Assembly (NCBI GenBank): GCA_902780565.1
Contig: CACZGD010000015.1
Coordinates: forward strand, 1 to 41,859
DNA from: Oscillospiraceae bacterium
GTDB lineage: Bacteria; Bacillota; Clostridia; Oscillospirales; Acutalibacteraceae
DNA: 41,859 nt
Reading direction: 5' to 3'
The notes beneath the pieces are model-generated. The model saw only the letters and a program-made list of their open reading frames with translations. It had not been told where the DNA came from and made no database searches. A program made the position numbers and the translations under genes. This document shows, one piece after another, positions 7,799 to 32,213 of this stretch. The first letter of the stretch is position 1, and every line of letters starts with the position of its first letter.

Positions 7799-7833
7799 AA
7801 AGATGGAAAATTATTTTTACAGGAGGTATGGTT

Positions 7834-10800
7834 ATGGGCAAGAAAAACCGGGCGCTGAGCGTCCTCCTTGCGGTCCTGATGGTGCTGACCGCGTTCCCCC
7901 TCTCCCTTCTTCCCCTCCCCGGCGCTTCCGCCGCGAACGGCGAAAGTCTGGAGATCGACTACGACAAAACGCAGGGCAATTCGCTGGCGGACGCCATAAA
8001 GGAGGACGCCAGATACGCCGTCGTGGCTTCGGCGCCGGATCTCGCCGGGCAGATCGACTACTATCGGAATCCTCACGCCACTTTCCACTGGGTGCAGACC
8101 TCCTCCGTCAACATCACGAACGACGGCAAGGTGGGGCTGCGCAAGTATCTTTCCGAAAACGTGACCGACTACCGCTATATCTCCCTCTCGGGCGATATCG
8201 ACTTCCACACGACCAAGCAGGACGAGTGGGAGCCCATCGTCATCTCCACCGACAAGGTGCTGGACTTAAATGGGTATTCCATCACGATCCGCTATGATTC
8301 CAACGCCCACAAGGGGCAGTCCACCTTCCCGGAGATGCACCGCGCGCACCTGTTCGAGATCGTGGACGGCGCCACGCTCACAGTCATCGACTCCTCCCGC
8401 TGGCGTATCAAAAAGACCGGCGGCTACGGGGACGAGGGCGGCACCGGCTACATCAGCATGACCGCGCGCATGATCTACCCGTTCTCCAACGACATCCGCT
8501 ATTACACCACCCGCGACATCTTCTGGGTGCTGGACGGCACGCTGGTCACTTACGGCGGCACCTTCCAGGCCGGGCGGCAGAAGGACCAGCGCAAGTCGAA
8601 CTTCTCGTGGTCGAAGCTGCGGCAGTGCATCGGCACGGCGGTGGAGCTGGGCGTGAACGTGGCCTCCTTCGCTACCGGCATCGACGTCGCGGTGGCGGCG
8701 AAGGACGACCTTGCGGCGGGCTTCGCCTCACAGAAGGTCGTGGACAACCCCGAGGACGACGGACTGGACGACACGCTGTCCTCCACCAAGAAACGCGACG
8801 GCACGGACGCGCCGGACGAGGCGCTGGCGGAATCGCCGGACGGCAAGGCCTCGCGCGATAAGTCCGTCACCGAAAAGGGCGCCGGGAACGCCGCGAACGC
8901 CTCCGGCACCGCCAAAAAAGAGAATACCGAAATGGCGAACGCCCGCAAGGAGATCACGAAGAACGCGACGAACCAGAGCGCCATCGGCAAAATGGTGGAC
9001 AGCGTGTTCAGCCTCGGCAGCCAGATCGCGAATATGACCGGCAAGGACGAGAGCTCCCGCGTGACGGAGGTCATTTTCGGCACGCCCGTGCACCTCGGCA
9101 CCGACGGCACCTTCGTGTGCTACGGCGGCACCTTCCGCGGCTACGGCTCCTCCCCGAACGTGCGCGACGCCGTGGTGGAGGTCACCTTGAAGCCCGATTC
9201 CGAGAACCCCAAAACCAAAAAACTCTCGGGCGGGCAGGCCTACATCTTCGGCGGGCATTTTGAGGGCTGCGCCGGCGCGAACATTTTCAATTTCGTCGAG
9301 AGTTACACCGGCACGCAGACGGTCCAGCAGGCCGTCGGCTACAGCCCCAAGAGCCAGTTCAACAATACCGTCGCCATGAAGTCGAGCGAGACCAACGACC
9401 TGCGGATCCTCTTCGACGGGCCGGACGGCAACCCCATCTCCACCAAAAACGTCGTCGTGCGCGGCGGCACCTTCCGCAACTATTACGAGCTGCGTATGCT
9501 CTCGTTAAAGGCCGACGGCGACAGCGAGCATTTCACCAAGTTCCCGGGCACGCCCGGCGGGCTCGGTCTCGGCGTGGAGTCCTTCGGCGAGGACATGATC
9601 AAGGACGGGCGCATCCAGATCATCGACAAATACGGCGACGGCAACTTAGTGCTGATGGACGAGGTCAAGTCCCCCGGCGAAAAGGTCTATCACCATCGCC
9701 TGTTCTGCTCCGATCTCGAGCTGAGATACAAACAGTATATCGAGGTGCAGCCGAACGTCCGCGCCACGAACACCACGCACACCTTCCACCTCGAAAGCGT
9801 GACGAGCGACGCCCCGGACAAGGATCTTTCCACCGGCTGGACCAGCGAGGACGGGAACGAGCGCACAGGTCCCTTCAACCAGACGGAGACGGTCTTCTCC
9901 TATCCGCTTGACTCCGTCGCCACGCCCACCTACTACGTCATCCCGCACCTCGACGCCGAGGACTCCTCCGGCGCCGGGATCGAGAACTCCAACATCTGGT
10001 ACTATATGGACCCCGTCGACACCCACGGCGAGAAGATCCCCGTCTACCGCAACCAGTCCGCGGTGCTCAGGAGCACGACCCTCGGCACGAACGAAACCGT
10101 GGTGCTCAGTCAGGAGTACACGCGCGACAGTTACGCCGAGCAGAAGATCGCGAACCTGGACCCCGGCACGGTCTCCGTCTGGGCGCTGAGTTACCGGTAT
10201 CTCAGCAACATCAAGTGGTTCACCTACCGCGTCTACCGCGTGGACCCCTTAACGCGGCGCAACATCAGCGAAAGCCCCGTCTACGGCGTGGATAAGCCTC
10301 TGTGCGAGATGGTCTACGGCGTGTCCACGGATACGCTCAAGTGCAAGATCACCCTCCAGCGGCTCGAGGAATACATGAAGCGCACCGTGTCGGGCTTTAC
10401 GGGCTTCAAGCAGGGCGAGATGTACCGCATCGAGCTGACCATGGACGAGCATATGTCCTTCGACATGATGCACAACAACAACCTCTACGGCTACAGCTAC
10501 TATCCCTCCTACGCCACCAATCTGCCCGTGGCGAAGGCGACGTCCAGCATCCTGTTCAAGTGCTATTCCACGGGCGAGCTCAAGGATCTCGGCGGCAAGG
10601 TCAAGGACGTGGACTACACGGCGCTGCAGTGGGACACGGAACCCAAGGCCGGGCAGTACGCGAGCGTGAAGATCGTCAACGGCATGGCCGGCAAGACCGA
10701 CTACCTTGCCAGAAAGATCTTCGACGTCTACTACCAGTGGTACGCGATCGACAAGAAGGGCAACGAGACCCTGATCGCGGGCACGGACAACATCTACTAC

Positions 10801-13800
10801 AACAACGACGCGGGCAAAGCGCGCCACACCTACGAATACTGGAACATCGGGTCCGACGGGCACAAGTACGTGAACACCGTGGATCCCAACGACCCGAAGG
10901 CCGCGACCTACACGTGGAACGGTCTGCCCGACCCGAAGACCGCCAAGACCACGTGGTCCGACGCCCTCATCCACGCCTACACGCATCAGATGACGACGAA
11001 GTCGGGCGTACTGAGCATCGACCCCGCGAAGGAGGCTTCTCCCAACAACAACCGTCCCTACGCCACGAACAGCGACGCCTGCTACATCCCGCAGGCCCTC
11101 GCCGGGCAGAAGATCTACTGCAAGGTCATTGTCGTGAACGTCCTGTGGCAAAAGGAATTCGACCACGTGCAGGTCTTCTGCTCGCACCCGGTGCAGCTTG
11201 AGGGCAAGCCGGAACCCGACCCTATCTCCTCAACGCTCCTGCTGACAAAGACGAGCGGGGCACAGTATATCTCCGCCGCCGAGCCGGTCACCGTCCGCTT
11301 CTCCACGCTCAAAGGACTTGCCGAGGATGAGACGGTCACCTCCGTCACCTACGTCGCGAACGGCCGCGAGAAGACGATCCGGAACTTTAAGGCGACCCGC
11401 GCCAATCAGATCCCCACGGCAAAGTACCCGCAGGATTTCTATCCCTCCGGCTACGACTTTTCCAAACTTCCGGCGGGCGAGGTGAAAATCGGCGCGTTCA
11501 TCACGCTCTCCTCCCTGCGCGGGCCCAGCGTGCGCGGCAAGGCACGGGGCTTCAATACCGACAAGGCGCTGTCCTTCCACTATGACGTGAAGGTCGCCTC
11601 CCGCTATTTCTCCGGCGCGAAGGACGGTGCCGTCACCGTGCCCCTTGCGCTGAAAAACGACGCCGCCGCGCTGGGGAAACTCCTCTCGGCGCATATGAGC
11701 CCATCCTCCGCCACCTACGGCGGCACGGCCTTTACCGAGGGCGAGACCTTCAGTACCGACGACCGGGAGATCGCGACCCTTGACGCGTCCGGCGCCCTGA
11801 AACTCGGCGGCAAGCCCGGCGTGACCGTGATCCGTCTTTACTCGCCCGACGGCAAAAACCGGTCCGTGACCGTGACTGTCACCCGGCAGATCGACAAAAT
11901 CGAAGTCACGGGGCTGAGCGCGCCGGAGGTCGGACAGAAGTTCGATCAGGAGGTCTCCGTGCCCGAGGACTGCGGCTACCGCGTGACGGACGTCTCTTGG
12001 TATGACGTGACCGAGCGCAGAACGCTCGCATGGGACGCGAAGGCCGCGGACTACCACTATTATACTGCGATGATCACCTTGGAGCCAGATCCCGTCTCTG
12101 TGGTCCCGGAAACCGCGACGGGCACGCTCACCGCCGAGTCCGCCGACGGCCTGATCACCGTGGGCAGCGGGCAGAAGGACTATGCCTTCTCGCTCGATAC
12201 GGACGAGGACGGCAGGGTCTTCTCGATGATGATGGAATATACCTTCCGCAAGGTCTCCGGCGGCATGATGGGCACCACCATCTCCCGCGTTTTCATCGAC
12301 TACCCGACCGAGGTGAAGGAAGGCTCCTACGTCGAGGACTGGCGCGAAAAGGTCGAGATCGTGTGCGACGTGGAGGGGTACGACCTGAACGCCGAAGTTT
12401 ATCCCTTCTGCAATAAACGCTTCGCCGAGACCGCCAAGGCCCTCGGCTATCCCACGACCGACCCCCGGAACATCCTCCGCTTTGTGGACGGGATCCAGAA
12501 CGGCGTTATCGCCAACGTCTCCCTGCCCACGGGCGTGACCTTCTCGACAAACCTCAAGGTCTACGTCAACGGCCGCGTCTGGGAGGACGCGCGGCACGAT
12601 TCCGCCACCTTCACCTTCTCCGCGCCGGACTCCCTGCGCATCTTAGAGGGGCAGCCCGCCCCCGCTAACACCCTTGACGTGCGGATGAAGGACTTTGACC
12701 TCACCAAAGAGCCGCTCACGGGCAAGGATACCGTCTTCCTCGACTCCCTGCGCGACGGCGCGGACGCTTCGCGCATCACCATGCGCGCGGGCGACCCCGG
12801 CAGGCCCGACTTCGTGACGATGAGTTATTCCACCGACGAGTTCGGTCGGGACCACTATCAGTTCAACGCGTGGGAGTCCACCCCCGCCCTCATCCGCCTG
12901 CCGATCTACGCCGACATTGACGTGGACGGCGACCGCCGCCCGGATCTCACCCTCGACTGGTCGGTGAACAAGCGCATTTATGAGACCGCGTCCGCCATGC
13001 CCGCGATCGTGACCGAGCCCGACCGCGCGGTTACTCTCCGCATCCTGAATCCCGACGGCACCGCCTTCACCACCCAGCGCATGACGCTGGGATCTGACCG
13101 CTTCGCGGACAAGGTCACGCTTCCGGAGGGCTGCCTCATCAAGGCCGTCCTCACGCCTGACAACAAGGTCTGCGACGTGGGGCTGATGGGCTACGTTACC
13201 CCGCCCGCCGGGGACAAGAGCGTGACCTGGACCGTGCAGACCGAAAAAGCGAACGTCATAGCGCATCCGGGCGCGTCCACCGTGACCGTCACCTCGCCTC
13301 TTCCCGCCATGCAGTACTCCGCCGACGGCGAGCACTGGACCGTGGACAACGCCGTGCCGGGCTTTGTCCGGGACGAGGACACCTTCCTCTACTACCGCCA
13401 GTTCACCGACGGGCAGATCTACGCCGTGCCCGTGCACACCGCTTCTTCCGGCTACGGCGTCTGGGTGGGCGATACCGAGGTCACGGACGAAAACAAGGAC
13501 CTTTTGGACCTCAATCACTGGTCCTACGACCCCGCCAAGCGGGAGTTAACGCTTTATAACCTCGACCTCTTCGACCGGGGCGTGCTCACGTCCGAGGGCG
13601 TGCATGCCGTGATCTACGCCAAAAACGACCTGACGCTCAATCTCGTCGGCGTGAATACCGTCGACTCGCCCGACGGCAAGGCCGGGGCAGTCGCCTGCGA
13701 CGGGGCGCTCACCCTCACCGGTCCCGGCGGACTCTCGGTCAATAACGTCACCGTCGGCCTGTCGGCGAAAACGTACCTCACGCTCGACGCCTCGGGCCCC

Positions 13801-15117
13801 TACGTCTTCACGAACACCGCCCAGGCCTTCGACGTGGAGGACTATGACAACGGCGCTGTGGACTACCGCAGCGGCAACCTCAGCTTTACCCCCTATACCC
13901 GCACATTCTCCGGCGGCACCCGGTCCTGGGGGCGCCTGAACGACGACGAGCTCGGCACGGTCTTCGACGACTGCTATCACAAGGACCATCTGCTGATCTA
14001 CGTGGACGGCGTCCTCAAAGAAAACCTTCAGGGGATCGCGGCCTACTCTTCGGCGATGTCCGAGCACGGGCACACGATCGACGTGACCATCCAGCACTAC
14101 GGCGCACAGGACTGGGTACAGAACAGGGACACCTTCGACTATACCTCCGACGATTCCGTCGACTGCACCAGCGGCTGCTTTTACAGAAGCGTCTGCACCG
14201 TTTGCGGCAAAGTAAACTTCGGCGGGCGCGTGAGAAACCAAAACAGCACGCATGACCTTGTTACCGTCCCGGCCAAGGCGCCCACCTGCACCGAGGGCGG
14301 CTGGGCGGAATATCAGTACTGCACGCGCTGCCCGTATTCCACCATGAAGGCGCTGCCCGCGACCGGTCACAAATGGAAGACCGTTTCCGGCAAGGAAGCC
14401 ACCTGCGACGAAGCCGGCGCGCCGGAATACTTCGTCTGCACCGTGTGCGGGGAGGATACCGAGGAGGCCGCGATCGAAGCGGGCGGCTACGGTCTTGCCT
14501 TCGCCCCCAAGGCGCACGTCCTCGTCTTTGTCCCCGGCACGGCCGCCACCTGCGCCGCCCCCGGAACGGCTGCCCACTACCGCTGCGGCGACTGCGGCAA
14601 GACCTTTGAGGACGCCGAGGGCAAACGTCCCGTAACCGCCGCCGCCCTCGCCATGCCCACCACCGGGCACACCTGGGGCGAATGGACCGTGACCAAGGCC
14701 GCGACCTGCGTTGCCGACGGCCAGACCGAGCGCACGTGCCTCGGCTGCGGACAGAAGGAAACCGAGACCGTGCCCGCCGCCGGACACGCCTGGGGCGCAT
14801 GGACCACCGAAAAAGCCCCCACCGCGTGGGAGGAAGGGCTTGAGGCCCGCGTCTGCGCCGTCTGCGGCGCCAAGGAGACCCGCGCCCTGCCGAAGGAGGG
14901 GATCGCCTACACCCTCGGCGACGTGGACGACGACGGCAAAATCTCCGCGTCCGACGCCCGCCTTGCGCTCAGAAGGGCGGTCGAGCTGGAATCTTACGCG
15001 CCCGGCTCCCGCGAATTCCTCGCCTGCGACGTGGATAAGAACGGCGCCGTCACCGCCGCCGACGCGAGAATGATTTTGCGCGCCGCAGTCGAGCTGGAAG
15101 ACCCCGCAACCTGGTAA
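7834..15117 (+). CDS. Giant secreted dockerin protein (2,427 residues) with beta-helix-like, Ig-like and CxxC-repeat regions
   Basis: No enzyme domain recognised. ATG at 7834 is chosen because AGGAGG is seven bases upstream (an ATG at 7828 is too close). Residues 1-35 form a signal peptide ending GASAANG. Residues about 90-570 carry recurrent GGTF/GGHF turns (near 235, 430, 475, 545) typical of parallel beta-helix proteins, interrupted at about 260-405 by a charged low-complexity insert. A BIG2-like segment lies near 1275-1365 (STDDREIATLDASGALKLGG). Residues about 1870-1990 resemble a cell-surface carbohydrate-binding-like repeat (VWVGDTEVTDEN, YDPAKRELTLYNL). From about 2110 to 2355 come CxxC repeats separated by GHTWGEW-type motifs. 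A type I dockerin closes the protein (DVDDDGKISASDAR and DVDKNGAVTAADAR). No sortase signal or C-terminal membrane helix is seen, so attachment would be via dockerin. Likely a surface or cellulosome-like component. Confidence 0.9.
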   Translation: MGKKNRALSVLLAVLMVLTAFPLSLLPLPGASAANGESLEIDYDKTQGNSLADAIKEDARYAVVASAPDLAGQIDYYRNPHATFHWVQTSSVNITNDGKVGLRKYLSENVTDYRYISLSGDIDFHTTKQDEWEPIVISTDKVLDLNGYSITIRYDSNAHKGQSTFPEMHRAHLFEIVDGATLTVIDSSRWRIKKTGGYGDEGGTGYISMTARMIYPFSNDIRYYTTRDIFWVLDGTLVTYGGTFQAGRQKDQRKSNFSWSKLRQCIGTAVELGVNVASFATGIDVAVAAKDDLAAGFASQKVVDNPEDDGLDDTLSSTKKRDGTDAPDEALAESPDGKASRDKSVTEKGAGNAANASGTAKKENTEMANARKEITKNATNQSAIGKMVDSVFSLGSQIANMTGKDESSRVTEVIFGTPVHLGTDGTFVCYGGTFRGYGSSPNVRDAVVEVTLKPDSENPKTKKLSGGQAYIFGGHFEGCAGANIFNFVESYTGTQTVQQAVGYSPKSQFNNTVAMKSSETNDLRILFDGPDGNPISTKNVVVRGGTFRNYYELRMLSLKADGDSEHFTKFPGTPGGLGLGVESFGEDMIKDGRIQIIDKYGDGNLVLMDEVKSPGEKVYHHRLFCSDLELRYKQYIEVQPNVRATNTTHTFHLESVTSDAPDKDLSTGWTSEDGNERTGPFNQTETVFSYPLDSVATPTYYVIPHLDAEDSSGAGIENSNIWYYMDPVDTHGEKIPVYRNQSAVLRSTTLGTNETVVLSQEYTRDSYAEQKIANLDPGTVSVWALSYRYLSNIKWFTYRVYRVDPLTRRNISESPVYGVDKPLCEMVYGVSTDTLKCKITLQRLEEYMKRTVSGFTGFKQGEMYRIELTMDEHMSFDMMHNNNLYGYSYYPSYATNLPVAKATSSILFKCYSTGELKDLGGKVKDVDYTALQWDTEPKAGQYASVKIVNGMAGKTDYLARKIFDVYYQWYAIDKKGNETLIAGTDNIYYNNDAGKARHTYEYWNIGSDGHKYVNTVDPNDPKAATYTWNGLPDPKTAKTTWSDALIHAYTHQMTTKSGVLSIDPAKEASPNNNRPYATNSDACYIPQALAGQKIYCKVIVVNVLWQKEFDHVQVFCSHPVQLEGKPEPDPISSTLLLTKTSGAQYISAAEPVTVRFSTLKGLAEDETVTSVTYVANGREKTIRNFKATRANQIPTAKYPQDFYPSGYDFSKLPAGEVKIGAFITLSSLRGPSVRGKARGFNTDKALSFHYDVKVASRYFSGAKDGAVTVPLALKNDAAALGKLLSAHMSPSSATYGGTAFTEGETFSTDDREIATLDASGALKLGGKPGVTVIRLYSPDGKNRSVTVTVTRQIDKIEVTGLSAPEVGQKFDQEVSVPEDCGYRVTDVSWYDVTERRTLAWDAKAADYHYYTAMITLEPDPVSVVPETATGTLTAESADGLITVGSGQKDYAFSLDTDEDGRVFSMMMEYTFRKVSGGMMGTTISRVFIDYPTEVKEGSYVEDWREKVEIVCDVEGYDLNAEVYPFCNKRFAETAKALGYPTTDPRNILRFVDGIQNGVIANVSLPTGVTFSTNLKVYVNGRVWEDARHDSATFTFSAPDSLRILEGQPAPANTLDVRMKDFDLTKEPLTGKDTVFLDSLRDGADASRITMRAGDPGRPDFVTMSYSTDEFGRDHYQFNAWESTPALIRLPIYADIDVDGDRRPDLTLDWSVNKRIYETASAMPAIVTEPDRAVTLRILNPDGTAFTTQRMTLGSDRFADKVTLPEGCLIKAVLTPDNKVCDVGLMGYVTPPAGDKSVTWTVQTEKANVIAHPGASTVTVTSPLPAMQYSADGEHWTVDNAVPGFVRDEDTFLYYRQFTDGQIYAVPVHTASSGYGVWVGDTEVTDENKDLLDLNHWSYDPAKRELTLYNLDLFDRGVLTSEGVHAVIYAKNDLTLNLVGVNTVDSPDGKAGAVACDGALTLTGPGGLSVNNVTVGLSAKTYLTLDASGPYVFTNTAQAFDVEDYDNGAVDYRSGNLSFTPYTRTFSGGTRSWGRLNDDELGTVFDDCYHKDHLLIYVDGVLKENLQGIAAYSSAMSEHGHTIDVTIQHYGAQDWVQNRDTFDYTSDDSVDCTSGCFYRSVCTVCGKVNFGGRVRNQNSTHDLVTVPAKAPTCTEGGWAEYQYCTRCPYSTMKALPATGHKWKTVSGKEATCDEAGAPEYFVCTVCGEDTEEAAIEAGGYGLAFAPKAHVLVFVPGTAATCAAPGTAAHYRCGDCGKTFEDAEGKRPVTAAALAMPTTGHTWGEWTVTKAATCVADGQTERTCLGCGQKETETVPAAGHAWGAWTTEKAPTAWEEGLEARVCAVCGAKETRALPKEGIAYTLGDVDDDGKISASDARLALRRAVELESYAPGSREFLACDVDKNGAVTAADARMILRAAVELEDPATW

Positions 15118-28758: not shown

Positions 28759-28915
28759 GAGAGTGCTCCTTTCTGCGCCGCGGCGCGGCGGGTTCTATGT
28801 TTTTGGTGTTGGAGGTCGGATGAAGGACGGGGCTGCGCCCCGTACCCCATTATAAAAATGCAAAATGCAGAATTGAATACCAAATTTCGGAAGGGCTTCG
28901 CCCTTACCCATCTTA
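28759..28915. other. Gene-free leader region with two compact hairpins
   Basis: Two short hairpins lie upstream of the metallophosphoesterase gene: GGGGC-TGC-GCCCC (28829-28841) and AAGGGC-TTC-GCCCTT (28891-28905). A stretch of tgcaaaatgcagaattg-type sequence lies between. No gene is seen. Confidence 0.6.
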
Positions 28916-28917
28916 AG

Positions 28918-29051
28918 ATGCCGACCGCAGGTCCCGACCCTGGCCTCTGGCCCCTGGTCCCTGGTCCCTGGTAAAATGCCGACCGCAGGTCCCGACCCTG
29001 GCCCCTGACTTCTGGTCTCTGACCCCTGACTTCCGGCCCCTGACTCCCGGC
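28918..29051. repeat. Two copies of the 20-bp core, each followed by a heptad array
   Basis: ATGCCGACCGCAGGTCCCGA occurs at 28918-28937, then five heptads (CCCTGGC, CTCTGGC, CCCTGGT three times, to 28972); it occurs again at 28976-28995, then eight heptads (CCCTGGC, CCCTGAC, TTCTGGT, CTCTGAC, CCCTGAC, TTCCGGC, CCCTGAC, TCCCGGC) ending at 29051, immediately next to the lipoprotein stop codon at 29052. Confidence 0.92.
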
Positions 29052-30214: not shown

Positions 30215-31015
30215 ATGAAACTGACCATGCTCGGCACGGGCAACGCCCAGGTCACCGAATGCTATAACACCTGCTTCCTGCTGGAGGACCGGCGGCAGCT
30301 CTTTCTGATCGACGGGGGCGGCGGCAGCGCGATCCTGCGCCAGCTCAAATACGCGGGCGCCGACTGGCGGGACGTGCGGCAGATTTTCGTCACGCACAAG
30401 CACATCGATCATCTGCTGGGGATCGTCTGGATGATGCGCATGATCTGCCAGTCCATGAGCCGCGGGAAATACGAGGGCGAGGCCGCGATCTACGCGCACG
30501 GGGAGGTGCTGGCGCTGCTGCGTGAGCTGGGGGAAAAGCTGCTGGCCGAAAAGGACGCGAAGCACCTCGGAGGGCGGCTGCGGCTCGTGGAGGTACACGA
30601 CGGCGAGACCCTGCCTGTGATCGGGCATGACGTCACGTTCTTCGATATCCGCTCCACCAAGGCGAAGCAGTTCGGCTTTTCCATGGAGCTGGGGGACGGC
30701 AGAAGGCTGACCTGCTGCGGGGACGAGCCGTATGAACCGAGCGAAGAGCCCTACGCGAAAAACAGCGACTGGCTGCTGCACGAGGCCTTTTGTCTGTACG
30801 GCCAGCGCGACGTGTTCAGGCCCTATGAGAAGCACCACTCCACCGTGAAGGACGCCTGCCTTCTTGCCGAAAGCCTCGGCGTCAAAAATCTGCTCCTGTA
30901 CCATACCGAGGATAAAAACATCCGAGAGCGCAAAGCCCTGTACACCGCCGAGGGTGCGCGGTATTTCCACGGGAACCTGTTCGTCCCGGACGATCTGGAA
31001 ACGTTTGAGCTGTAA
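30215..31015 (+). CDS. RNase Z-like metallo-beta-lactamase-fold hydrolase
   Basis: A 266-residue metal-dependent hydrolase. The zinc motif HxHxDH is present as VTHKHIDHLLG (about 58-67), with further ligands expected in the GDEPYEPS segment and near the C-terminal YHTED. The N-terminus KLTMLGTGNAQVTECYNTCF is the usual start of RNase Z and related phosphodiesterases (TxLGTGxAxP). The pattern LLIDGGGGSAILRQL also fits. It is shorter than true RNase Z (about 310 residues) and lacks the long exosite loop that binds tRNA, so a general phosphodiesterase or hydrolase role is likelier than tRNA 3' processing. ATG at 30215 follows CCGGAGGAA. The gene has its own promoter and is followed by a terminator. 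Confidence 0.88.
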   Translation: MKLTMLGTGNAQVTECYNTCFLLEDRRQLFLIDGGGGSAILRQLKYAGADWRDVRQIFVTHKHIDHLLGIVWMMRMICQSMSRGKYEGEAAIYAHGEVLALLRELGEKLLAEKDAKHLGGRLRLVEVHDGETLPVIGHDVTFFDIRSTKAKQFGFSMELGDGRRLTCCGDEPYEPSEEPYAKNSDWLLHEAFCLYGQRDVFRPYEKHHSTVKDACLLAESLGVKNLLLYHTEDKNIRERKALYTAEGARYFHGNLFVPDDLETFEL

Positions 31016-31020
31016 AAAAG

Positions 31021-31046
31021 ACCCGGGAGGAAAGATCCCGGGTTTT
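31021..31046 (+). terminator. Terminator after the MBL-fold gene
   Basis: ACCCGGGA (31021-31028) and TCCCGGGT (31036-31043) form an 8-bp stem followed by TTTT. Confidence 0.75.
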
Positions 31047-31118
31047 CGATTTTAAAATCATATATTATGACGTATAAAAGAATCCTGCCGCGTCGGCGTT
31101 CAGAGAATAACAGGCTCC

Positions 31119-31236
31119 CCTGTCAGCACTGTCAGCACTGTCAGCACTGTCAGCACCAAAAAACGATCCATATATAAAAAACTTTTTTTTATTTTCTTCA
31201 AAATCGGGTGCTGTATATGCTGACAGTGCTGACAGG
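31119..31236. repeat. Repeat module 1: arms of 9-bp units (TGTCAGCAC)
   Basis: Left arm: four exact 9-bp units TGTCAGCAC at 31121-31156. Right arm 31206-31236 contains the reverse complements (GTGCTGACA type), so that the outer 18 bases (31119-31136) pair perfectly with GCTGACAGTGCTGACAGG (31219-31236). The central loop of about 50 bases is AT-rich (TATATAAAAAAC, TTTTTTTTATTTTC). Confidence 0.9.
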
Positions 31237-31321
31237 TTCAGCCGAACACACGAATCGGCACGATTCAAACAAAACATGCGGTCATTCAAATGCCTGATGC
31301 GCGTTCATATAAGGTGCTGCT

Positions 31322-31445
31322 GCCGCTACTACCGCTACTCCTAAAATAGGGCAAAATAATAAAAAACTTTTTTATATCACAGATGGTTTTGGGTAGTAGC
31401 GGTAGTAGCGGTAGTAGCAGTAAGAATTAGCAGTAATAACAGTAA
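31322..31445. repeat. Repeat module 2: arms of 9-bp units (GCTACTACC / GGTAGTAGC)
   Basis: Left arm 31322-31341 holds GCTACTACC then GCTACTCC. Right arm holds three exact GGTAGTAGC units (31392-31418) and then a decaying AGTAA-rich tail to 31445. The loop is AT-rich with an AAAAAACTTTTTTAT palindrome, as in module 1. Confidence 0.87.
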
Positions 31446-31514
31446 GTTAAATATATAGTTAAATATATATGAAATGTGAGCAGTGCGTTGTGCTTCAATT
31501 TGACGCGGAATAAA

Positions 31515-31624
31515 GTGTCAACACTGTCAACAGTGAAAATGTGAGGCATCGAAAGGAAAATCAAAAAAGAAAGAAAACCTGATTTTGTGTGTTGACAGTG
31601 TTGACAGTGTGAACAGTGTTGACA
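31515..31624. repeat. Repeat module 3: arms of 9-bp units (TGTCAACAC / GTGTTGACA)
   Basis: Left arm: TGTCAACAC and TGTCAACAG (31516-31533). Right arm: four 9-bp units GTGTTGACA, GTGTTGACA, GTGTGAACA, GTGTTGACA (31589-31624). The loop is purine-rich (GAAAGGAAAATCAAAAAAGA). An ATATATGATATAT tract follows directly. Confidence 0.9.
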
Positions 31625-31700
31625 ATATATATATGATATATATGATATATGTTATATATAAGATTCAGGCTTTGTTTTTCCGGGAAGGCGTGCCGATCTC

Positions 31701-31730
31701 GTAGCACGGCACCTCAGTGCCGTTCGGTGC
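31701..31730 (-). repeat. Inverted partial copy of the 80-bp repeat (30 bp)
   Basis: These 30 bases are the exact reverse complement of 31974-32003, the 3' part of the second 80-bp repeat. They include a GGCAC...GTGCC palindrome. Confidence 0.9.
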
Positions 31731-31830
31731 ATATGTTATATTTTCCAATTACCGTCGGTACGAACATGGTCGGGGGTATGGGGAAGGCGTGCCTATCATG
31801 CCGTACTACCGTTGGGATTGGAACCTTGTT

Positions 31831-31910
31831 CCGTATCCCCGACCGGATCCTGATCGGGACGTTTTTGAGAATATCATTGTACCGAACGGCACTGAGGTGC
31901 CGTGCTACCG
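31831..31910 (+). repeat. 80-bp direct repeat, copy 1
   Basis: Begins CCGTATCCCCGACCGGATCC and ends GGTGCCGTGCTACCG; differs from copy 2 at three positions by my base-by-base comparison. It contains a CGGCACTGAGGTGCCG hairpin. Confidence 0.9.
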
Positions 31911-31925
31911 TGCTGGCAGGCCTTC

Positions 31926-32005
31926 CCGTATCCCCGACCGGATCCTGACCGGGACGTTTTTGAAAATATCATTGCACCGAACGGCACTGAGGTGCCGTGC
32001 TACCG
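31926..32005 (+). repeat. 80-bp direct repeat, copy 2
   Basis: Second copy of the 80-bp unit, 15 bases after copy 1; the two copies agree at 77 of 80 positions. Confidence 0.9.
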
Positions 32006-32008
32006 GGG

Positions 32009-32094
32009 ATTTTACCTTGTCCCGTTATACCAAACCGGGTCGCGATCATATATTTTACCTTGTCCCGTTATACCAAACCGGGTCGCGATCATAT
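32009..32094 (+). repeat. Exact 43-bp tandem duplication
   Basis: Two identical 43-bp units (32009-32051 and 32052-32094), each starting ATTTTACCTTGTCCCGTTAT and ending CGCGATCATAT. An ACCGGGT segment inside pairs loosely with the nearby TTACC. Confidence 0.93.
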
Positions 32095-32099
32095 TTCAA

Positions 32100-32213
32100 A
32101 TGCCGACCGCAGGTCCCGAAATTTTTATTTTTTCTTTTTTAACTTTTCATTCCCTGATCCCTGGTCCCTGGTCCCCGGCCCCTGATTATAATCGCGGCGC
32201 AGCCGCAACCGAA
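32100..32213. repeat. 20-bp core, interrupted heptad array and 23-bp repeat
   Basis: Core ATGCCGACCGCAGGTCCCGA at 32100-32119, then about 30 bases of T-rich sequence, five heptads (CCCTGAT, CCCTGGT twice, CCCCGGC, CCCTGAT) at 32152-32186 and, at 32191-32213, a 23-bp element with GCGGC-GCA-GCCGC hairpin that recurs identically at 36918-36940. Confidence 0.88.

Follow-up and report, generated by a model that had tools for sequence, protein, structure and literature searches.

The window, as we call the whole 41,859-nt stretch that was analyzed (contig CACZGD010000015.1 of an Oscillospiraceae bacterium), contains at 31119-31624 three inverted arrays of tandem 9-bp units, in each of which the reverse complements of the units in one arm make up the opposite arm. 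The arrays lie between two convergent genes, encoding an MBL-fold protein and a DUF2079 membrane protein, and the 1-kb bin at 31001-32000 has a GC content of 0.438, the lowest of the 41 bins. The three modules, designated M1, M2, and M3, are built around A/T-rich cores of 51, 51, and 55 nt, respectively, and the unit differs from module to module.

M1 (31119-31236) has the unit TGTCAGCAC, with four units on the left and three on the right, one of them decayed. Its left arm is TGTCAGCAC repeated four times (31121-31156), and its right arm (31208-31234) reads as the decayed GTGCTGTAT followed by ATGCTGACA and GTGCTGACA. M2 (31315-31422) has the unit CGCTACTAC, a relative of TGTTACTAC; CGCTACTAC and CGCTACTCC form the left arm at 31324-31341 together with a decayed outer unit, TGCTGCTGC, and two copies of GTAGTAGCG plus GTAGTAGCA form the right arm (31393-31419). 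M3 (31514-31624, with units from 31516) has the unit TGTCAACAC in two left and four right copies: TGTCAACAC and TGTCAACAG at 31516-31533, and four GTGTTGACA-type units, one of them GTGTGAACA, at 31589-31624. By analogy, the cores of M1 (31157-31207), M2 (31342-31392), and M3 (31534-31588) are proposed to be unwinding regions. The core motif ATAAAAAACTTTTTT (family D8) is common to M1 and M2.

The genome is rich in other repeats, several of which occur in the window. Positions 31681-32100 hold another dispersed repeat family (GTAGCACGGCACCTCAGTGCCGTTCGG and its neighbors), with 98% identity over 133 bp to the flank of an array on own-genome contig C102, and a perfect 43-bp tandem duplication lies at 32009-32094. 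CCCTGGT-type 7-bp repeats at 28914-29051 and 32096-32184 are accompanied by the block TGCCGACCGCAGGTCCCG and then T-rich sequence; similar CCCTGGT-repeat/TGCCGACCGCAGGTCCCG sequence also adjoins arrays on contigs C23 and C76. Elsewhere in the window, an open frame of 2429 residues spans 7828-15117 on the plus strand.

The original prediction of three inverted-repeat modules of 9-bp units around A/T-rich cores was confirmed at this place. A detector of inverted arrays, set to spacers of 20-150 nt, returned exactly M1-M3 at period 9 and nothing in the window at periods 7, 8, 10, 11, or 12. The same periods and period 9 gave no arrays in 60 locally dinucleotide-shuffled windows, and no arrays were detected in 41 same-genus control loci (194,287 bases). 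At looser spacing (0-300 nt), the window added three period-6 matches and one A/T-only period-7 match, 31629-31659.

The modules belong to a larger family. Pattern searches located the same design on contigs C8, C23, C65, and C76 of this genome, and a covariance model built from nine family members matched at least 16 distinct places here at E 0.01 or better, nine of them used in building the model and seven new. The figure of 16 is a lower bound because 150 candidates were scored per genome, and the E-values are rough. At the same threshold, the model also matched 2 of 25 other congeners (G024 and G011); the exact inverted TGTCNNCAC pattern, which is blind to other units, was found in 1 of 59 relatives and 1 of 394 genomes of the order, and both hits were this genome itself. 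C66 and C76 each carry two neighboring modules that differ in unit, like the three in the window. The nearest own-genome copies of M1 and M2 are the arrays on C8 (84% over 75 bp) and C30 (78% over 91 bp), the latter abutting a helicase C-terminal remnant. The earlier suggestion that the modules are parallel products of one process holds insofar as each is a distinct member of one family and the units have diverged. Another contig, C161 (L187:4179-5068), carries a pair of arrays that have one core in common and are separated by about 780 bp, and between them lies what reads as a small HTH-regulator-like gene; this core forms a GGGATCC...GGATCCC hairpin unlike the other cores.

Units agreed at 92% within an arm, 89% between opposite arms, and 59% between modules in a recount that covers 10 of 16 modules and omits six modules and an 8-nt decayed stretch on C8. 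In the alignment of arms, 90.7% of cells were paired compared to 73.8% in shuffles, and 12 of 18 arm pairs were altered on both sides (31 cells versus 10.0 in shuffles); the number of further pair types was no greater than in shuffles, 280 of 500 of which came out as high. As this alignment was hand-trimmed to the arms and its sequences are related, the co-variation is to be read as a pattern and not as a probability. None of 161 cells was changed on one side only, as by G-U pairing, and this result, together with the agreement among tandem units, points to double-stranded DNA sites rather than an RNA hairpin. The long RNA hairpins of the original prediction, which as transcribed attenuators, terminators, or stabilizing stems would be selected for RNA structure, are accordingly disfavored, and we regard them as very unlikely. 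M1-M3 would indeed fold strongly (z -9.8, -10.9, and -4.1), but pairing needs no identity among tandem units, other copies lie, by our reading of open frames, upstream of gene starts or between divergent genes, and no array matched an Rfam family at gathering thresholds, where only tRNA and 5S rRNA were found.

The high identity within and between arms would also be expected if an older palindrome had undergone local slippage and quasipalindrome correction, which made and homogenized the units with no protein involved. Slippage, as offered in the original prediction, may shape the number of units, but it leaves the shared core motifs, the dispersed copies, and the helicase scraps that meet arrays (see below) unexplained, and period 9 is seen again alongside the initiator-helicase genes of unrelated hosts. 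As the origin of the arrays, we consider it highly improbable.

Six C-terminal scraps of a DUF927/HTH_56 helicase were found in this genome at E 2e-7 or better (C25, C23-end, C30, C16, C100, and C102); own-genome rows C6 and C1 (E ~0.25) were left out of this count. All six meet an array or the beginning of one: those on C30 and C102 run into a complete array, those on C16 and C100 reach two units before the contig ends, and on C25 and C23-end the contig breaks off five bases into a TGTCA unit. The C25 scrap (L268:4850-5317) is a 155-codon open frame that contains only the HTH_56 part (2.3e-8), comes with a ribosome-site-like sequence, and has the array start right behind it; it could possibly encode a stand-alone iteron binder. 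A promoter common to the sister-species helicases described below and these remnants was sought and not shown: the upstream regions lack clear homology; in the one remnant/sister-gene pair compared, a 12-base stretch around the ribosome site alone aligned.

A proposed vestige of such a gene directly precedes M3. At 31478-31513 on the plus strand, 11 codons and a stop (EQCVVLQFDAE*) may be the 3' end of a DUF927/HTH_56 helicase gene, and the register before the array is alike in the window (EQCVVLQFDAE-stop, AG, first M3 unit) and on C25 (TQCVVIQIEE-stop, AG, TGTCA). The M3 flank scored 28 against the gene tails of both C25 and C23-end, the top among 29 flanks, with C102 tying for C23-end; the maxima in 1740 single-base shuffles were 26 (C25) and 23 (C23-end). 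The vestige thus rests on two of six tails, the M3 flank giving no significant score against the other four. Because of these scores and the shared register, M3 is most likely the array left by a decayed helicase gene. No gene vestige was recognized in the flanks of M1 and M2, which we infer to have had the same origin as M3.

BLAST homology is confined to the array between C30 and C76b (97% over 107 bp) and between C23 and C65 (89% over 108 bp), and it extends past the array between C23 and C76a (77% over 242 bp). C16, C100, and C102 share scrap and array at 89-95% over 140-230 bp behind unrelated-looking genes, which by reading are BlaR-like before the C16 scrap and ClpB-like before the C100 scrap. 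The dispersed copies therefore look like the result of copying. No empty site was found: among the better MBL orthologues, at 52-70% identity, the five that were read lie beside other genes and lack an array, and the same holds for two orthologues of the permease beside a sister-species helicase.

MITEs are gene-less inverted-repeat units that occur as near-identical copies with target-site duplications and are related to an autonomous transposase element. The arrays resemble them as dispersed, gene-less inverted-repeat units of about 107-117 bp, and the C30-C76b and C23-C65 pairs, homologous in the array alone, are near-identical copies of the expected kind (the nearest copies of M1 and M2 being less similar, as given above). 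The arrays could then be the ends of an ordinary DNA transposon that bind a conventional transposase, their likeness to phage origins being convergent. However, the gene remnants beside the arrays are C-termini of a DUF927/HTH_56 helicase and not of a transposase, intact copies stand behind helicase genes, the units vary widely among copies, and the C23-C76a homology implies that the bare array was not always what was copied. Neither a transposase beside the arrays nor, by eye, a target duplication was seen, and the nearest orthologues of the flanking gene have other neighbors. We judge a transposon origin to be quite unlikely.

We found DUF927 in 4 of 26 genomes of the genus, at five loci (L237-L241), and neither DUF927 nor VapE matches in this genome (assembly rated 97% complete, in 240 contigs), in which no helicase ATPase domain was found. 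An array lies at or within about 120 nt of the helicase stop at three of the four DUF927 loci whose 3' side is present: 11 nt behind the stop at L237, overlapping the gene end at L239 (relaxed settings), and about 120 nt behind at L241 (relaxed settings, with a core of about 170 nt). The detector found no array behind the L240 gene, and L238 ends before the 3' side. In two sister species, the DUF927+HTH_56 helicase gene stands alone among housekeeping genes with the array at its stop, next to a permease, a phosphoribosyltransferase, and an isocitrate-type dehydrogenase at L237 and to an aminotransferase and an Fe-hydrogenase at L239. By contrast with this stand-alone state, L241, behind a CHC2 zinc-finger frame, may be part of a larger replicon. 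Over 173 bp, the sequence that follows the L237 helicase shows 84% identity to an orphan array of G024 (L189). A further frame followed by an array, L190:3765-5333, was rejected as not helicase-like by reading.

DUF927 and HTH_56 domains are both present in the L237 protein (P0001), which matches the structures of the SaPI protein 8tch (8.5e-21) and of Cch (5dgk, 2.3e-8). In a tree of 21 proteins, rooted at its midpoint and with 7 of 18 inner branches open, the three stand-alone helicases, one of which is truncated where its contig stops, group in a single clade (100/100) with a long stem. P0001 matched 22 of 394 genomes of the order, this genome included, and among ten other order-level helicase loci that were read, an array lies behind the gene in four and no period-9 array was detected in six.

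The same design occurs in viral and island-like sequences. Three tandem copies of TGTCNNCAC were found in 24 viral contigs, and of the 16 for which positions were listed, 11 show one or more inverted units no farther than 200 nt away and five show none. Nine proteins from nine of these loci comprised four of VapE type, one DUF927 protein, two terminases, and two with no Pfam family. At 80 VapE loci (kept of 195 relatives), the detector found a period-9 inverted array in 25 and none in 55, with widely varying units (TGTCACCAC, TGTCCAACC, TGTCCCACC, and others). The same 80 loci gave period 8 in 10, period 10 in two, and period 6 in 46; their shuffled copies gave period 6 alone, in 23 loci, and period 8 in none. 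VapE was rejected as the driver in the genus, given its absence from this genome and the lack of a period-9 array at three genus VapE loci (L157-L159). A search of genome contigs for inverted TGTCNNCAC arrays with spacers of 50-80 returned one stretch, which belongs to a Burkholderiales MAG and is adjacent to a VapE gene. The M2 unit GGTAGTAGC occurred at 20 viral loci, of which the detector flagged L073 only, twice, in sequence that is repetitive by eye.

A scan for two copies of TGTTACTAC gave 31 loci, eight of them with an inverted array. At five of the loci, the array begins 87-88 nt behind a gene (rep) of 570-575 codons; two of the five rep-like proteins were scanned, and both are DUF927 proteins. 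One of the two matches 8tch, a solved structure named "Pathogenicity island protein," at 1.8e-151, and for this reason we term these contigs SaPI-like. Two of the SaPI-like contigs, L204 and L213, also hold open frames that by reading resemble phage portal and head genes. Relatives of the SaPI-like rep are present in 20 phage records, and an array was flagged in four of seven loci fetched: FP_Epona at strict settings, and phiRg507T2_3, PT1028, and MT835606 at relaxed settings only, the phiRg507T2_3 and MT835606 arrays being nearly the same. The detector flagged no array in Jekyll, THSA-485A, or AC844P2; short repeats behind the gene are visible by eye in the first two. Cores at the phage loci are mostly about 75-95 nt, longer than the 51-55 nt in the window. 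The binding arrays (iterons) of the original prediction thus gain support, as phages, SaPI-like contigs, and sister species all show this design behind genes for initiator helicases, with several of these examples resting on relaxed settings.

We conclude that the modules are probably iteron-type replication-origin arrays orphaned from an AAA+ initiator helicase of the DUF927 family, which is related to SaPI Rep and SCCmec Cch, and that some of the arrays were copied alone. The C-terminal helix-turn-helix of the helicase would recognize the opposed tandem 9-bp sites, and the self-loading helicase would open the A/T core, as is reported for relatives. In the genus, the helicase occurs as a stand-alone chromosomal gene with an array at its stop; in this genome, where the helicase genes are found decayed to C-terminal scraps, the arrays persist, and some appear to have been copied, either alone or together with a scrap. 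Each module would retain the unit specificity of the helicase that it formerly served, and for this reason three neighbors would be alike in design and unlike in sequence. At present, the modules would either be inactive or function in trans alone. The assembly contains no intact helicase gene, and each array would accordingly be a relic, a site that is used in trans, or a decoy for phage initiators.

In SaPI-type origins, opposed sets of iterons flank an A/T-rich region, and SaPI and PICI elements carry integrase, regulator, primase, and packaging genes around the origin. The modules likewise consist of multiple short iterons in opposed sets around A/T-rich cores, and the SaPI-like contigs carry the TGTTACTAC unit of own-genome contigs C76 and C30. 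A helicase gene lies directly upstream at L237, L239, and L241 and not in the window, and the two genes that flank the modules are those of the MBL-fold and DUF2079 proteins. Unlike SaPI/PICI origins, the arrays here have no island, no adjacent primase or integrase, and no intact Rep, and they are solitary, many per genome, and shorter in the core. SaPI origins lie directly downstream of the helicase gene, are made of iterons, and are recognized by the Rep C-terminal domain, and the Cch2 origin is described as having three direct iterons (PMC7581432). The HTH_56 domain is the helix-turn-helix domain of SCCmec Cch, which P0001 also matches in structure, but no cassette surrounds the arrays here. 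The VapE/DUF927 regions of phages such as Faecalibacterium phage FP_Epona share the inverted 9-bp pairs, the A/T core, and the nearby helicase gene; unlike the modules, they belong to phages, have longer cores, and mostly have one unit type per array.

An origin-like sequence outside the phage could titrate its initiator, as in lactococcal Per, and the arrays might be kept as decoys for the initiator helicases of infecting phages with a comparable effect. Differing specificities adjoin in one place (the window, C66, and C76b-c), and phage records bear the same kind of array. Per is a cloned-origin effect: origin regions with their replisome organizers are described as giving Per when cloned in trans (PMC8965321), which speaks for such an effect. 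However, three blastn array queries against 50,697 phage records found no phage with matching unit and core, the one match covering 30 bp of the M1 core and coming from a single Cronobacter phage with two records, and the helicase remnants fit decay. We consider retention as decoys unlikely.

AAA+ helicases with iteron origins have been described in phages, SaPIs, and cassettes. Here, such arrays are not part of any of these elements, and one chromosome has them in no fewer than 16 places, with differing specificities side by side; no chromosomal orphan arrays of this kind were found in the literature searched, which covered few subscription papers. We tentatively suggest, as a possibility that we hold well below our main conclusion, that in this genus a stand-alone helicase of about 570 residues and its iteron array of about 110 bp together make up a minimal selfish unit of the chromosome that lacks transposase, integrase, and virion genes, and whose array-only and HTH-scrap-plus-array derivatives spread through the chromosome and diversify in specificity. 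If so, several "origin" specificities could be combined at one locus, which might respond to, or titrate, several invading phages. If the arrays are still bound, they could cause local over-replication, act by titrating phage initiators, or be the mark of a way to spread without a transposase.
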